In this document: one piece after another, positions 12,277 to 16,877 of the stretch
Layout: each line of letters begins with the position of its first letter
Numbering within the stretch: the stretch's first letter is position 1
Assembly: GCA_946482615.1 (NCBI GenBank)
Contig: CAMLSF010000051.1
Span: forward strand, 1 to 22,608
Reading direction: 5' to 3'
Origin: an uncultured Chromatiaceae bacterium
GTDB lineage: Bacteria; Pseudomonadota; Gammaproteobacteria; Enterobacterales; Alteromonadaceae
DNA length: 22,608 bases
Translations under genes and position numbers: made by a program
Notes under the pieces: generated by a model
Seen by the model: the letters and a program-made list of their open reading frames with translations, nothing else
Databases searched by the model: none
What the model was told of the DNA's origin: nothing

Positions 12277-14004
12277 ATGCAGTTAAAAATTACCGCGTTA
12301 TTTGTGCTGGGTTTATGTGTATCCGGCTGTGGTCAGCAGCAGAAGCCAGGGGTGGCTGATACTGTTTATTCAGGTGGTGTTGTGATCACCATGAACGATC
12401 AACAACCTCTGGCTGAAGCTGTGGCTGTGTCAGATGGAAAAATTATTTTTGTCGGTTCTGACGAAGAGGTGAAAGCCTATCTGCATCCCGGCACTGAACA
12501 GGTCGATTTGCAGGGGCGCAGCTTGTTACCGGGTTTTATCGACGCTCATGGTCATGTCAGCACTGTAGGTTTGCAGGCGATGTCGGCCAATCTGTTGCCG
12601 GTACCAGATGGTCAGGTGAACTCCGTTGTTGTGTTGCAGCAGGTATTGACTGAATTTATCAGTCAGTCGGACTTACCTGCCAAAACCGGTTTGGTGATGG
12701 GCTTTGGTTACGATGACTCCCAATTGCAGGAATTACGGCATCCCACTAAAACTGAGCTGGATCTGGTATCCACTGAGCTCCCTATCATTATCATGCATCA
12801 GTCAGGTCATTTAGGCGTCGCTAATAGTAAAGCTCTGGCTATGGCGGGGATCAGTGCAGCAACAGCAGATCCACAAGGTGGAGTGATCCGTCGTCTGCAG
12901 GGTTCAGACGAACCGGACGGTGTATTGGAAGAGCTGGCTTTTTTTACTGTACTGGCGAAATTGTTCCCGATGTCTGATCCTGAGTTTGCAATGCAGATAC
13001 TGCAGGCAGGGCAAGCACTGTATCTGAAATACGGTTACACCACTATTCAGGATGGTCGTGTTAGTTCTGATCAGGTTCACACCGCCATCAGAGCTGCAGA
13101 ACAAGGCTTGTTAAAAGCCGATCTGGTGTCTTATCCGGATATTACCGATGCAAAAAGTGCAGCATTGATGCAGCCGCCCTGGTTCCACGACAGCCGTCAT
13201 ACACCAGCCTATCGACAACATTTCAGAATAGGTGGCATGAAGTTAACACTGGATGGGTCGCCTCAAGGCAAAACAGCCTGGCTCAGCCAGCCTTATTATC
13301 AGCCGCCTGCCGGCCAAAAGGCTGACTATGCAGGTTATGCTGTAATGACCGATCAGCAGGCTCAAACTTATATTGAACAGGCGTTACGCCAGCACTGGCA
13401 ACTGCTGGTTCATGTGAATGGGGACAAGGCCATTGACCAGTTTCTGCAGGCGATGCAAAAGGATTTTCAACTGCATGGGCAAACCCAAACCCGCCCCGTA
13501 TTGATCCATGGCCAGACGTTACGACAAGATCAGGTAGCGCCATTAAAACAGTTGGGCATTTTTCCGTCAGTTTTCCCTATGCATACTTTTTATTGGGGCG
13601 ATTGGCATCGATCTTCAGTATTGGGCCCGGAGCGGGCTGAACATATTTCGCCTACAGGCTGGCTGTTGCAGCAGGGTATGATGTTCACCTCTCACCACGA
13701 TGCTCCTGTTGCTTTTCCAGATTCGATGCGGGTGTTGTCTGCCACAGTGAACCGTACGACCAGAAGTGGTTATGTCTTAGGCCCACAGCACAGAGTTGAG
13801 CCGTTAATAGCGCTCAAAGCTCTGACTTTATGGGCCGCCTGGCAACATTTTGAAGAAGCCAGCAAAGGCTCAATCGAAGCCGGCAAACTGGCAGATTTCG
13901 TGATCCTGTCGGACAACCCTTTAACAGTGCCAAAAGAGCAATTAGCCAGTTTAAAAGTGCTGCAAACCATTAAGCAGGATAAAACAGTGTATAAAGCCGA
14001 TTAG
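12277..14004 (+). CDS. Lipoprotein amidohydrolase, YtcJ-like (amidohydrolase family 3)
   Basis: This 575-residue metal-dependent hydrolase has a lipoprotein signal peptide, with lipobox VSGC and Cys18 as the lipidated residue. Gly at +2 does not signal inner-membrane retention, so outer-membrane anchoring on the periplasmic side is likely. The amidohydrolase start (VYSGGVVITMNDQQPLAEAVAV) leads to PGFIDAHGHVS, with His91 and His93 as metal ligands. Later motifs are GMKLTLDGSPQGKTAWL, VHVNGDKAIDQFL, VLIHGQTL and SHHDAPVAFPD. These are typical of YtcJ-like enzymes, many annotated as D-aminoacylase or N-substituted formamide deformylase; the real substrate is unknown. The C-terminus KLADFVILSDNPLTVP is complete. 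An aaggaaag upstream supports the start. It has its own transcription unit between two terminators and no obvious pathway partner beside it. Confidence 0.87.
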   Translation: MQLKITALFVLGLCVSGCGQQQKPGVADTVYSGGVVITMNDQQPLAEAVAVSDGKIIFVGSDEEVKAYLHPGTEQVDLQGRSLLPGFIDAHGHVSTVGLQAMSANLLPVPDGQVNSVVVLQQVLTEFISQSDLPAKTGLVMGFGYDDSQLQELRHPTKTELDLVSTELPIIIMHQSGHLGVANSKALAMAGISAATADPQGGVIRRLQGSDEPDGVLEELAFFTVLAKLFPMSDPEFAMQILQAGQALYLKYGYTTIQDGRVSSDQVHTAIRAAEQGLLKADLVSYPDITDAKSAALMQPPWFHDSRHTPAYRQHFRIGGMKLTLDGSPQGKTAWLSQPYYQPPAGQKADYAGYAVMTDQQAQTYIEQALRQHWQLLVHVNGDKAIDQFLQAMQKDFQLHGQTQTRPVLIHGQTLRQDQVAPLKQLGIFPSVFPMHTFYWGDWHRSSVLGPERAEHISPTGWLLQQGMMFTSHHDAPVAFPDSMRVLSATVNRTTRSGYVLGPQHRVEPLIALKALTLWAAWQHFEEASKGSIEAGKLADFVILSDNPLTVPKEQLASLKVLQTIKQDKTVYKAD

Positions 14005-14077
14005 GCAAAATTCGACGCCCGCTAATTTGAGGCGGGATTCCCCTGACTTTAGGGAAAAAGACGAGAACAACTATAGA

Positions 14078-14110
14078 GCCCTGCATTGATGCCAGTACAG
14101 GGCTTTTCTG
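14078..14110 (+). terminator. Intrinsic terminator after the amidohydrolase gene
   Basis: The stem gccctg / cagggc (14078-14083, 14098-14103) with a 14-base loop is followed by ttttctgtt. It lies 73 bases after the stop codon. Two short hairpins precede it (cccgc/gcggg at 14018-14036 and ttccc/gggaa just after) without T-runs. Confidence 0.65.
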
Positions 14111-14118
14111 TTAAAATT

Positions 14119-14147
14119 TTGATTTTATTCGATATTTTGTATCTGTT
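14119..14147. repeat. Direct repeat bounding the AbiE islet, distal copy (att-like)
   Basis: This 29-base segment matches 16011-16039 at 26 of 29 positions. Read on the minus strand it encodes Q-I-Q-N-I-E-stop, identical to the last six residues of YicC, and all three differences are at synonymous third codon positions. It is a detached yicC tail, here preceded in frame by a stop codon. The core contains a short inverted repeat around ttttat, as expected of a tyrosine-recombinase crossover site. I interpret it as one att site of an inserted element. Confidence 0.75.
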
Positions 14148-14263
14148 AGTTGATTAGTTTTTATAATCTGTTTTAAATCAATTGGTTGCATTTAAATTCT
14201 ATTTTTATTTTTGTGTTTTACTCACCACTTTACCCGCCATTTTTACTTCGCTTAAAATATGCA

Positions 14264-15256
14264 TTAACTGCTTACTTTCGAAAGTGAGTCACCAAATTGT
14301 TGCTCCACATAATCCAACACGTTATTCGATAGCTTTATAAAAACAGCTAACGCCTCCAGCCATTGAGTGGGGTTTTCAGCATATACCATAGGGCTAACAT
14401 AGCTGTTGTATCGCTGCTCGAACTTAGGGTTATCAGCTAAGAGCTGCAATCCGAAGCGTAACTCTTCAATAGGGGATTCAACCATTTGTGGATGTTGATT
14501 ACCATAGCGCTCAACATCTGTGCGGATTGCTTTAGCCACAAGTGCGGCAAGTTGCTCGATATCTGAAGGTTGGGCGAGCTGGATATGGTAAGTATCGTAG
14601 ATATGTCGAACTAAGGTCTCGTCATCATCCCGTTCGCTGTTGCGCTCTACACTGGCGGTTCTGCGCATCATTGAAAGCAGTTTTTCAGCCTGTGTCTCAA
14701 TAATTGCAGCGCAGGATAACTGGTTAATCTCGACATCACTTTTCAGCATGCGCGAAAAAATAGACTGAATACTCCGTGGCTCAGAGGCACTGAGTAAATC
14801 AGATTCGATAAACTCCAGTTTGATAAATGGACGCAAACAGGGGGCTTGCTGATACTCCTGTGGGTAACGAATGTCGAAGCTGAAATATCTATATTCATCC
14901 AACACTAGAGGCGCAGTTTCAACAGAAAAGGTTTTACTCTGTGCAATAACTGACTCTACCAACTGCTTAGCGGCCTTGCGTGCATTTCTTCTGGCATTTC
15001 GAGAGATGAGGTCGGAAAAAGCTGGCTTCGGGACCAGCTTTAGATCGACGTCTTCAGACATGCGATAGGTTTTGATTGCAGATTTCGCCAGTGCTGTTCC
15101 ACCAGAGAACACTATGTGGTGATATTCGAGTTCAAGTGCAGATATCTGCTGCAGCAATTGCACTACGTAATAGTCTTTCTCAACAATGGCAGGGTTGCCA
15201 AGCCCTAAAGCATTCGCAACATCGATAAATAGCGAGCTATCGAACTTCGTTGACAC
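14264..15256 (-). CDS. abiEii: AbiEii-type nucleotidyltransferase toxin (type IV TA)
   Basis: This 330-residue nucleotidyltransferase of the AbiEii/AbiGii (DUF1814) family is the toxin of type IV toxin-antitoxin and abortive-infection systems. VEKDYYVVQLL at residues 25-35 is a family signature. The nucleotidyltransferase motif SGGTALAKS (51-59) is followed by the metal-binding SEDVDL (67-72). LRPFIKLEFIE and later AEKLLSMMRR, ending in VRHIYDTYHI, complete the usual motif set, so the enzyme looks intact. The start is GTG with aggga about seven bases upstream. It overlaps the end of the antitoxin gene by 20 bases, so translation is probably coupled. Relatives modify tRNA 3' ends or otherwise arrest growth when not neutralised. 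It sits in an islet at the yicC 3' end. Confidence 0.88.
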   Translation of the reverse strand: MSTKFDSSLFIDVANALGLGNPAIVEKDYYVVQLLQQISALELEYHHIVFSGGTALAKSAIKTYRMSEDVDLKLVPKPAFSDLISRNARRNARKAAKQLVESVIAQSKTFSVETAPLVLDEYRYFSFDIRYPQEYQQAPCLRPFIKLEFIESDLLSASEPRSIQSIFSRMLKSDVEINQLSCAAIIETQAEKLLSMMRRTASVERNSERDDDETLVRHIYDTYHIQLAQPSDIEQLAALVAKAIRTDVERYGNQHPQMVESPIEELRFGLQLLADNPKFEQRYNSYVSPMVYAENPTQWLEALAVFIKLSNNVLDYVEQQFGDSLSKVSS

Positions 15257-15641
15257 GCTGTTTCCCTACCGCAATCTTGCGGGTAAAGCGTGAACTCTTA
15301 GGGATAATTTTCACGTTTGCTGGAATTTGAGTGCTTTCGCCTGACAAATTTTTCAGAGACAAGTCATCAAGTTGATAATCAACACCTAACCTTTCCATGG
15401 CCTCTATCATCACCCCGTCATTACCAGCAGGGTTGTCCGGCATTAGCTGGCCAGTAATACGATTGATTCTGGCGCGTACATACAGGCCGTAGCCAATTTT
15501 CAACAGCAAGCCTTCGCGTACCAGGCTTCTGAGGCCACGGCCAACCTGATCATAATCAGCGATATCAGTAAAATCAGAACGCAGAAAAACAGAACGCTTA
15601 GAGCGCTTCACTCTGGTTTGTATTCTGTCTTGTATCGTCAT
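15237..15641 (-). CDS. abiEi: AbiEi-type antitoxin / wHTH regulator (DUF6088-like)
   Basis: This is a 134-residue partner of the AbiEii toxin. The N-terminus (MTIQDRIQTRVKRSKRSVFL, then DYDQVGRGLRSLVREGLLLKIGYGLYVRAR) is the winged-helix form common to AbiEi-like antitoxins that repress their own promoter. The short C-terminal part (KVIIPKSSRFTRKIAVGKQ-type sequence) is the presumed antitoxin domain, smaller than in streptococcal AbiEi and resembling DUF6088 proteins. An in-frame ATG at 15662 is possible, but the ATG at 15639-15641 has gggaggt six bases upstream and is preferred. It is the first gene of the pair and overlaps the toxin start. Upstream, two 15-bp direct repeats embedded in the promoter are the likely binding sites for this protein (inference). 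Confidence 0.82.
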   Translation of the reverse strand: MTIQDRIQTRVKRSKRSVFLRSDFTDIADYDQVGRGLRSLVREGLLLKIGYGLYVRARINRITGQLMPDNPAGNDGVMIEAMERLGVDYQLDDLSLKNLSGESTQIPANVKIIPKSSRFTRKIAVGKQRVNEVR

Positions 15642-15668
15642 CTGATACCTCCCGTTTATCATAGTTGT

Positions 15669-15697
15669 AGCATAAGCAAAAATACGACAATGATCAA
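15669..15697 (-). promoter_or_regulatory. Promoter of abiEi-abiEii
   Basis: On the minus strand, TTGATC (15692-15697) and TATGCT (15669-15674) are separated by exactly 17 bases, a good sigma-70 promoter. It lies 28 bases before the preferred antitoxin start. The spacer is filled by one copy of the 15-bp direct repeat. Confidence 0.6.
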
Positions 15698-15715
15698 ATA
15701 CAAAAATACGACAAT
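15677..15715. repeat. Two 15-bp direct repeats at the abiE promoter
   Basis: The sequence caaaaatacgacaat occurs at 15677-15691 and, identical, at 15701-15715, with start points 24 bp apart. The first copy occupies nearly the whole -35/-10 spacer; the second lies just upstream of the -35 box. A protein bound to both would cover the promoter, so they are candidate AbiEi operator boxes. Confidence 0.65.
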
Positions 15716-16010
15716 TAAATGAAGCTTTATCCAGTATTAATAAGTGCTTCAGAGGAGTAATTAATTCTAATTTTTTGTAAATCGTTGATTAGTGGAGAGG
15801 ATAAAACATTGCTTGAAATAACCCTAACGTCGTAGAGACTAATAAGATGAATTGCATCTGTGACAGACGTTTGAGGTGGAAAACTCAATGGTATGTTGAG
15901 GGTATAACATAAAGCATTTTTCAATGTACTGCCAGAAAGGGTCTTTGCTTGAGCTAAGATCAAGCAAAGACTTTAACCAGCTCCATGAGTTGGGGGTTTG
16001 TTTTAAGTTA
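15716..16010. other. Non-coding A+T-rich stretch between abiE promoter and yicC end
   Basis: I see no convincing gene here. A minus-strand frame of 78 codons from a TTG at 15963 ends near 15727. Its middle (SVTDAIHLISLYDVRVISSN) and end faintly recall the C-terminal half of PIN-domain proteins, but it lacks a ribosome site and the N-terminal half. The stretch also holds the strong hairpin at 15941-15971. It may contain debris of genes lost from the islet. Confidence 0.35.
15941..15971. repeat. 11-bp perfect inverted repeat near the yicC end of the islet
   Basis: The arms gtctttgcttg (15941-15951) and caagcaaagac (15961-15971) are perfect complements around a 9-base loop. It lies 40 bp inside the yicC-proximal repeat. 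On the minus strand, the direction of yicC transcription, it is followed by a pyrimidine-rich run, ccctttct, so it might help end the yicC transcript. It could also be a recombination arm site. Confidence 0.5.
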
Positions 16011-16039
16011 TTGATTTTATTCAATATTTTGGATTTGTT
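16011..16039. repeat. Direct repeat bounding the AbiE islet, yicC-proximal copy (att-like)
   Basis: This copy contains the stop codon and last six codons of the functional yicC gene (Q-I-Q-N-I-E-stop on the minus strand) plus a few bases beyond. It pairs with 14119-14147. Within it, attga-ttttat-tcaat (16010-16025) is an inverted repeat with a 6-base centre, as in integrase core sites. Confidence 0.75.
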
Positions 16040-16877
16040 CCCGCATCTGTTCAATTAAAACTTTCAGCTCCACCGCTGTATTAGTGATCTCGGTTGAGAT
16101 GGCTTTCGAGGACAAGGTGTTCGCTTCGCGGTTGAATTCCTGCATCATAAAATCGAGGCGGCGGCCTATGGCTCCGCCTTGTTTCAGGCTGTGGCGGGTT
16201 TCTTTGATATGAGCCTCTAAACGGTCCAGCTCTTCTGCTACATCAGATTTCTGGGCTAAAAAGGCCATTTCCTGCTCGAGGCGGTTTTGGTCCAGTTCGG
16301 CTTTTACTTCCTGCAGGCGGTTGAGCATTTTGTCGCGTTGCCATTGCAGGGCTTGTGGTAAATGGGTGCGTAAAGTGCTGACATGAGTGGCGATTTGATC
16401 CAGACGGTCGCGGATCATGTGCTCTATAGCGACGCCTTCACGGCCACGGCCTGCCACGAAGTCGACTAAGGCAGCGTCAAAAGCTGCCATCAGTTCGGCT
16501 TGTAAGCTGTCGATGTCTTCTTCCTGAGTTTCCATCACACCAGGCCAGCGCAGAATATCCACTACGTTTAACTGGGCTTTGCCGCTTTGCTCGGCTAATA
16601 GGCTGGCGCTTTGCATCAGTTGTTTGGCCAAAGCTTCGTTAATTTTTAACTCACCGGCAGAGCTTGCCGCACTGTATTTCAGGTTGATTTCCAGTTTGCC
16701 GCGGTGCAGTTTCTGCCGCAGTTTGTCGCGTAATAAACCTTCTAAGCAACGAAACTGTTCTGGCAGGCGGAAATAGCTTTCCAGATAACGCTGGTTAACG
16801 GAGCGGATTTCCCAAACGGCATTGCCCCAGCTGGCACGAATTTCGTGGCGGGCATACGCGGTCATACTGTGGATCAT
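16017..16877 (-). CDS. yicC: YicC/YloC-family endoribonuclease
   Basis: This 286-residue protein of the YicC family matches the usual length (287 in E. coli). The N-terminus MIHSMTAYAR and EIRSVNQRYLESYFRLPEQFR are family signatures. The C-terminal domain has EEDIDSL, then RLDFMMQEFNREANTLSSKA, ending EQIQNIE. Homologues are reported to be endoribonucleases taking part in RNA turnover. The start has agga about eight bases upstream. It diverges from rph over a 127-bp region with a recognisable promoter for each gene. Its last codons form the crossover region of the AbiE islet, so the current C-terminus is intact but may have been supplied by the inserted element, since a synonymous second copy of the tail lies 1.9 kb downstream. 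Confidence 0.95.
   Translation of the reverse strand: MIHSMTAYARHEIRASWGNAVWEIRSVNQRYLESYFRLPEQFRCLEGLLRDKLRQKLHRGKLEINLKYSAASSAGELKINEALAKQLMQSASLLAEQSGKAQLNVVDILRWPGVMETQEEDIDSLQAELMAAFDAALVDFVAGRGREGVAIEHMIRDRLDQIATHVSTLRTHLPQALQWQRDKMLNRLQEVKAELDQNRLEQEMAFLAQKSDVAEELDRLEAHIKETRHSLKQGGAIGRRLDFMMQEFNREANTLSSKAISTEITNTAVELKVLIEQMREQIQNIE

Follow-up and report, generated by a model that had tools for sequence, protein, structure and literature searches.

An AbiE toxin–antitoxin islet at the 3' end of yicC as a probable one-armed remnant of an integrative island

Introduction

How does a toxin–antitoxin (TA) pair come to lie between two copies of the end of another gene, with no recombinase beside it? 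The question is raised by a 22,608-nt stretch of DNA from an uncultured Chromatiaceae bacterium (GenBank assembly GCA_946482615.1, contig CAMLSF010000051.1; the whole stretch is called the window below), in which a predicted AbiE pair occupies a 1.9-kb islet at the 3' end of yicC. A prediction made from the letters alone (the original prediction) had taken the islet for an element that inserted there and restored the gene end. Comparison with relatives establishes, at the level of sequence, the target, the cores, an arm-like site, occupied and empty states, and exchanges of flanking DNA centred on the core. The islet, so viewed, is a complete-looking right attachment site joined to a core-only left junction, and we consider it likely to be what is left of the right end of a larger, AbiE-bearing, yicC-specific integrative island. 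P4-type, attL, attR, attB and arm site are used here as labels that we take to fit the features so named.

The closest relatives of the window's YicC are Rheinheimera proteins. From 572 relatives the best 80 were retained as yicC loci (L numbers), and a search of the genus found yicC in 21 of 22 genomes. In 12 of these, the close genomes, YicC identity is 97–99% (G001, G002, G003, G004, G005, G006, G133, G166, G167, G169, G171 and G173).

Results

The islet is bounded by two copies of the yicC tail, at 14119–14147 and 16011–16039, that agree at 26 of 29 bases and both read QIQNIE-stop on the minus strand. The copy at yicC itself has the codons CAA, ATC and ATT where the distal copy has CAG, ATA and ATC, around the shared codons CAA, AAT, GAA and TAA. 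Every one of the three mismatches is thus at a synonymous third position; 11 of the 87 single substitutions possible in the 29-mer are synonymous, which puts three out of three by chance at ~0.002. With up to 7 mismatches allowed on the minus strand and up to 6 on the plus strand, no further tail was found in the window. When the 80 yicC loci were each scanned with their own 23-nt tail (up to 5 mismatches), 9 copies lay downstream on the yicC strand, in 8 of the 80 loci, versus 0 on the opposite strand and 0 upstream on either strand, so that tail copies are not background. In its location, at the 3' end of yicC with a copy of the gene tail on either side, the islet is like a yicC-specific island. 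The synonymous pattern had been taken to mean that both tails evolved as real yicC ends. The coding identity stands, but the distal copy is a hybrid: CAGATA, its left part, goes with the right end of the element (and recurs in G166 and G167, with CAAATA in G005), and its right part with the outer flank. Moreover, right-end tails elsewhere may be non-synonymous or stopless (G004, CAGGTCAAA..; G003, ..GAACAA; G343, TAG..; degenerate in G169), so synonymy is no rule for right ends.

What a larger occupant of this site looks like can be seen in R. tangshanensis (G005). Its island opens after yicC with a 404-aa integrase that has Arm-DNA-bind_3 (PF13356), central and catalytic domains; an AbiE pair of the window's family (AbiE-1; the two proteins are 92.4 and 98.6% identical to the window's) starts ~26 kb past yicC, and 27.6 kb separate the yicC stop from the distal tail. 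The sequence after that tail is identical over 211 nt, and 88.8% identical over 1,239 nt, to the sequence directly after yicC in R. mesophila (G001), which is without the island. The two genomes therefore present an occupied and an empty site, with AbiE-1 at the right end of the island. Homology between the window and G005 runs from ~15738, upstream of abiEi, to the distal core; left of that, the window has a different sequence, the left-end module described below. G167 likewise has an integrase at yicC, and its AbiE-1, with the same right end, is near the start of another contig. In G343, AbiE-1 and a right arm share ~2 kb with a degenerate left arm (3 mismatches, 86 nt after the stop) in a genome with no L005-type integrase, and this arrangement looks like an intermediate. 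The G005-type integrase was found in 5 of the 21 genomes tested and in 0 of the 7 with the left-end module. In one of those seven, G166, whose yicC lies on a contig of 4.63 Mb, PF00589 gave 8 matches, and none of them falls within 100 kb of the gene.

The 3' side of yicC is a hotspot in the close genomes. A block of Gfo/Idh oxidoreductase, GH94 and MFS genes (Pfam) lies downstream of yicC in the first-fetched DNA of 10 of the 12; it is farther along the yicC contig in G005 and on another contig in G167. The region between yicC and this block varies. Seven genomes have the left-end module after yicC, with AbiE or Fic blocks (G002, G003, G004, G133, G166, G169 and G173), two have a P4-type integrase directly after it (G005 and G167), G001 and G006 have other genes, and G171 is empty, with merely 134 nt between yicC and Gfo. 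The AbiE-1 islet of G166 closely resembles that of the window (tail starts 1,891 versus 1,892 nt apart, 93.5% identity over ~2 kb), and the gene beyond its distal tail differs from the window's. Truncated AbiE-1 copies in G169 and G003 are followed by a second left-end module and then by a Fic islet, which in G002 and G004 stands directly at yicC; a second AbiE family (AbiE-2) occurs in G173, G133 and G003. A distal core was recognised in G166, G169, G002, G003 and G004, five of the seven left-end genomes, and it is there that flanks change. The Fic islet stops at the core before three different continuations (one in G002, one in G004, one shared by G003 and G169). A flank with a helicase (ResIII, DUF3427, PLD) begins at the core both after AbiE-1 (G166, G167) and after Fic (G003, G169).

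Farther loci have comparable blocks without an L005-type integrase: Fic and AbiE-2 between tails 3,294 nt apart in L014 (a metagenome-assembled genome), a third AbiE family in L017 (Rheinheimera sp. UJ63), and HipAB in ~2 kb at yicC in Shewanella L041. An empty site bearing the window's own right flank was not found in the 22 genus genomes; a 99-nt part of that flank, comprising the tail and a hairpin, is matched in G003 and G167 at 72–75% identity, and a 33-nt stretch in G170. These comparisons bear out the original prediction in several respects: the two tails, their synonymous mismatches and the want of an integrase around the AbiE pair were described correctly, and insertion at the 3' end of yicC with restoration of the gene end is supported by a site that close relatives leave empty or fill with an integrase island or with islets of other kinds. 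Relatives with both tails and no AbiE, which it had held to tell against insertion, do occur literally in G002 and G004; a Fic islet lies between their tails, which speaks for an insertion site, not against one.

The feature that ties the islet to integrase islands lies between abiEii and the distal core (Table 1). It is an exact match to a tandem of 9-mers, TGGYGRGTA-N3-TGGYGRGTA, with a period of 12 bp, which is found in the left ends of integrase islands and in the right ends of AbiE-1 and AbiE-2 islets. A scan of 110 sequences (the 80 yicC loci, 15 and 14 fetched regions, some overlapping, and the window) with at most 1 mismatch in total gave 25 rows, or 23 distinct places. Ten are left ends, with the motif 115–128 nt after the core start; ten, the window included, are right ends, with the motif in every case exactly 94 nt before the core (tails with up to 5 mismatches); and three have no recognised tail (L012, G311, and G169, where the right end passes through a degenerate core into the next islet). 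All 10 Rheinheimera-group right ends are near an AbiE pair, a share that is biased, five of them (G005, G167, G024, G272 and G343) having been fetched for AbiE. The exact pattern gave 10 matches in 7 of 36 chosen genomes, 8 of them at −127 or +94 of a tail and the remaining two at tailless AbiE-1 ends. Of 394 genomes of the order, 5 had it, with 6 matches in all, each adjoining a yicC tail. By a 200-nt identity check, 10 of these 16 matches were at known places (9 from the first scan, plus G722, the same place as L028) and 6 were new. The new ones all adjoin yicC tails with no more than 2 mismatches, four at 125–127 nt (left ends, with yicC and an integrase around) and two at 95 and 104 nt before the tail (right ends); the two right ends of the order scan have no match to the query proteins. 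Among the 80 loci, a full P4-type integrase is present in 13, and a motif match in 7 of these 13, with a weaker form in L049. In G005 the exact motif occurs once on the left and once on the right, with no additional tail above noise in between, and AbiE-1 closes that island. From its position and from the arm-binding domain of the integrase, we read the tandem as an integrase arm site. The window keeps both cores, and the arm-like motif is on the right only, whereas an island would have arm sites at both ends.

On the left there is instead a module shared by islets with different cargo. An nhmmer search of 17 sequences placed it at 11 positions (2e-45 to 1e-33), of which 10 had already contributed to the model seed; the 8 sequences with these positions all belong to the 13 close ones. 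Among 24 genomes it was found at the yicC locus of G002, G003 and G004 only, besides a weak 29-nt match in G018; it is also present in G133. It had no blastn match in plasmids or phages, and its hairpin had no exact match in viral contigs; considered as a yicC terminator, the hairpin folds well, yet the terminator scan does not list it. No arm motif was detected on either strand in the 360 nt after the window's yicC (the best site has 7 mismatches, versus 4–6 for the best of 200 shuffles), and none of the 8 sequences with the left-end module has the pattern within 300 nt after yicC.

The two AbiE families differ in what their divergence suggests about movement. Between the window and G166, G167 and G005, synonymous divergence (dS) is 0.13–0.31 for AbiE-1 and 0.18–0.30 for yicC and rph; abiEi is 100, 99.3 and 98.6% identical to the window's at the amino acid level in these three genomes. 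Against the distant G343, G311 and G024, dS is ~1.2 for abiEii, 0.86–1.09 for rph, 1.4–1.8 for yicC and 0.34–0.52 for abiEi. For AbiE-2, G003 and L014 differ by a dS of 0.39–0.49, with yicC at 1.91 and rph at 0.89, and G003 and G173 by 0.32–0.78, with rph at 0.09. We read this as horizontal exchange of AbiE-2 across lineages at the yicC site.

The pair itself has the features of a type IV AbiE system. The predicted antitoxin gene abiEi lies upstream of the predicted toxin gene abiEii in a bicistronic arrangement with a 20-nt overlap, and the residues of the acidic nucleotidyltransferase motif, GGT...SEDxD, are invariant across five aligned AbiEii proteins. No solved structure related in sequence to AbiEii or AbiEi was found. 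A third open reading frame (ORF) between the tails encodes 78 aa with no Pfam match. Neither ORFs nor Pfam revealed an integrase or recombinase between the tails, where an island would have one beside attL, and no excisionase or mobilization gene was found among islet ORFs of at least 70 aa, a search that left smaller ORFs and a non-coding origin of transfer outside its range. In having no integration or transfer genes the islet agrees with the definition of a cis-mobilizable element (CIME). Upstream of abiEi, two 15-bp direct repeats, which have counterparts in G166 and G005, are a candidate operator for AbiEi.

Beyond the distal tail stands a GC-rich hairpin that was not called by the terminator scan; similar sequence is found, by eye, directly 3' of yicC in L016 and L020, and the hairpin is perhaps a displaced yicC terminator. 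The amidohydrolase gene farther out, between Gfo and the islet, had no tblastn match in the yicC regions fetched from the 12 close genomes and may be a further insertion. Window DNA compared with plasmids gave partial matches only, none covering 80% of the query.

Table 1. Features of the islet and its surroundings in the window
Feature	Position	Strand	Evidence
Amidohydrolase gene, outside the islet, between Gfo and the islet	12277..14004	+	PF07969
GC-rich hairpin beyond the distal tail	14077..14104	-	66-nt segment -16.9 kcal/mol, z -2.9
Right junction core CAGATACAAAATATCGAATAA, hybrid attR	14125..14145	-	tail scan, relatives compared
Integrase arm-like tandem TGGCGGGTAAAGTGGTGAGTA; distance from its start to the distal core 94 nt	14219..14239	-	exact motif match
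abiEii, nucleotidyltransferase toxin (predicted)	14264..15256	-	PF08843 2.1e-27; PADLOC 1.2e-121
abiEi, antitoxin of DUF6088 type (predicted)	15237..15662	-	DUF6088 2.7e-10; PADLOC AbiEi 3.5e-50
Pair of identical 15-bp direct repeats CAAAAATACGACAAT upstream of abiEi, offset by 24 bp from start to start	15677..15715	.	
Left-end module, common to islets with different cargo	15890..16016	-	nhmmer
Hairpin inside the left-end module	15941..15971	-	12-bp stem; 61-nt segment -22.7 kcal/mol, z -2.9
Left junction core CAAATCCAAAATATTGAATAA, the yicC end, attL without arm	16017..16037	-	tail scan
yicC, target gene, whose end is the proximal core	16017..16877	-	PF03755, PF08340; 97–99% protein identity, 12 close genomes

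Other yicC loci have arrangements of their own. In the yicC array of R. soli (L003 8430-10850) a TOTE-type primase-helicase (AEP-TOTE, PF22548) lies between two AbiE systems. Two Shewanella HipAB-like islets (L029 13354-13764 and L032 4931-5191) end, instead of in a short tail, in a longer yicC fragment (86 codons and up to 136 codons, respectively), which a short core exchange does not explain, and in Shewanella marina (L030 10864-16730) a 5.9-kb yicC block ends in a tail copy, with no L005-type integrase and no AbiE-1 match. By eye, tandem repeats of other sequence, GGTTACTAAA for example, follow yicC in the left ends of L038, L053, L008 and L071, and a similar repeat lies close to the right end of the L033 block, which has an integrase fragment. 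The arm motif may change together with the type of integrase.

Discussion

The arrangement of tails, arm-like motif and flanks is, in our judgement, best accounted for as a remnant of the cis-mobilizable type, the right end of an AbiE-bearing yicC island, and we hold this to be probable. The original prediction's term "decayed island" suits this reading, given that yicC integrase islands and the islet's right end have the arm-like motif in common. A number of observations weigh against it. Excision was not observed. In the close clade, AbiE-1 is as divergent as yicC and rph, and so gives no sign of recent transfer; the notion of an "incoming" element, insofar as it implied recent arrival, finds no support there. 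The left-end module is unexplained and is repeated in arrays (G003, G169 and G004), and it may be another kind of working end. Two of the seven left-end genomes, G173 and G133, have no clear distal core, and both have breakpoints inside islets: in G173, AbiE-2 lies between two Fic-islet ends, and G133 runs into AbiE-1-islet sequence. The arm-site interpretation, for its part, draws on position and on the arm-binding domain of the integrase and on these only. The motif is absent from 5 of the 13 loci with a P4-type integrase (L067, L038, L053, L008 and L071), it is present in two viral contigs that have neither a yicC tail nor a tblastn match to the query proteins, and a reversed control was commoner than the motif itself in the 394 genomes (13 versus 6), though not in the 36 (3 versus 10). 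Motif counts thus prove nothing alone; positions do.

Several other explanations have to be set beside this one. Were the repeat a coincidence next to an ordinary resident TA locus, its shortness (29 nt, with three mismatches) would be no surprise, but tail copies would not be confined to one strand downstream of yicC, nor would the arm motif keep a fixed distance or the site be met both occupied and empty, and we take this explanation as refuted. A second alternative is a static relic, old and vertically inherited, in which strains have come to differ through deletions and homologous recombination while site-specific recombination has played no further part. The shared age of AbiE-1, yicC and rph suits this idea, as do the internal breakpoints away from the core and the lack of an L005-type integrase in all seven left-end genomes, two of which (G166 and G173) have yicC on 4.6-Mb contigs. 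It is nevertheless improbable in our view, as it fits neither with flank exchanges that fall at the core nor with the exchange of AbiE-2 across lineages indicated by the G003–L014 and G003–G173 comparisons.

The remaining alternative retains mobility and changes its source, the islets being non-autonomous mini-elements, each a left-end module plus a right end, that are moved in trans from one yicC site to another by an integrase encoded elsewhere, such as the XerC-like one of G004. The left-end module does accompany three cargoes (AbiE-1, AbiE-2 and Fic) and recurs in arrays; the short G004 integrase (PF00589 and PF02899, with an arm-binding domain not found) sits behind such a module, and a 58% homologue stands ~200 nt after yicC in G056 (L167 31-2067, at a contig edge). 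But in G004 no right-end tail was found after the integrase, and the stretch is a mosaic partly common with G002; six other fetched loci of this integrase type have no left-end module, with yicC in one, G056; and the type occurs in 1 of the 80 yicC loci. We therefore judge movement of this kind unlikely. The short G004 integrase was itself considered as the cognate recombinase and is a weak candidate, with no right-end tail after its G004 copy and its rarity at yicC. Transfer in trans, which the original prediction had offered as an option, is not borne out by the left end, which lacks the arm motif, or by the seven left-end relatives, which lack an L005-type integrase. A broader form of the idea, a Rheinheimera family of integrase-less, cassette-like defence islets in which interchangeable TA cargo sits between the left-end module and the yicC core, is stacked in arrays at the gene's 3' end and is moved in trans by the recombinases of other elements, is conceivable at best and rather doubtful.

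If the islet is indeed a one-armed remnant, its history and behaviour could be pictured as follows. Everything from the yicC core to AbiE would have been lost from the ancestral island, including the integrase and the left arm. The core-only left junction could still serve as an attB for newcomers. The remnant probably cannot move unless a yicC island inserts next to it; its attR could then recombine with the attL of that island and both would leave together, that is, by accretion and cis-mobilization. Meanwhile the AbiE pair, as a type IV TA and abortive infection system, would select for retention of the remnant and keep cells from losing it.

Much of this has precedent. Islands at yicC, integrase-less tandem elements bounded by attachment sites, and TA pairs beside attR are already in print. 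MGIVflInd1-type and SGI1-like islands target the yicC 3' end (PMC8409611; PMC5704250). The original prediction had likened the islet to the Vibrio members; the target gene end is the same, but those islands have an integrase and other mobility genes, and the motif found here is that of Rheinheimera, Arsukibacterium and Shewanella islands and is absent from L067, the one Vibrio locus with such an integrase. Nearer in organisation are the Shewanella islands as the cited report presents them: GISpuPO1 and GISspANA3 in yicC have 21-bp repeats, and GI21, with repeats of 9 bp, is itself elsewhere and has relatives in yicC (PMC8978831). GI21 carries an integrase and an excisionase beside attL and hipAB beside attR, its excision was detected by quantitative PCR, and HipAB is reported to keep it from loss (PMC8978831). 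Like the islet, these islands combine insertion in yicC and short repeats with, in GI21, a TA pair beside attR; GI21, however, is 21 kb long with its own integrase, excisionase and HipAB, whereas the islet is 1.9 kb with AbiE and no recombinase. Shewanella yicC islands have also been described with defence systems (PMC12016545).

The CIMEs are described as bounded by attachment sites, without integration genes, in tandem, and thought to move with a neighbour (PMC5704250), and 15 of 31 ssrA islands of Dehalococcoides have no integration module (PMC3146451). As presented there, both involve another gene, integrase and cargo, and the window's islet differs in keeping a candidate arm site on the right and none on the left. 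An AbiE pair of type IV is said to stabilise ICESsuHN105 of Streptococcus suis (PMC11062541); that element is conjugative, and the likeness lies in an AbiE pair inside an integrative element. In the literature searched, we found no paper naming both AbiE and yicC as whole words, and in the parts consulted we met no description of the arm motif.

The AbiE islet is a new, very small member of the yicC islands and, on the reading preferred here, a compact case of a large island shrinking to a defence pair and one attachment site. With it comes a sequence handle, two 9-mers at a 12-bp period, 94–104 nt before the right core or 115–128 nt after the left core, by which both ends of one class of yicC island can be located, integrase-less remnants included. 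The position of AbiE in the window and of HipAB in GI21, each beside the right attachment site, suggests that TA pairs placed there outlast the rest of the island, and the islet makes the rescue of a one-armed remnant by a neighbour a testable question in environmental bacteria.

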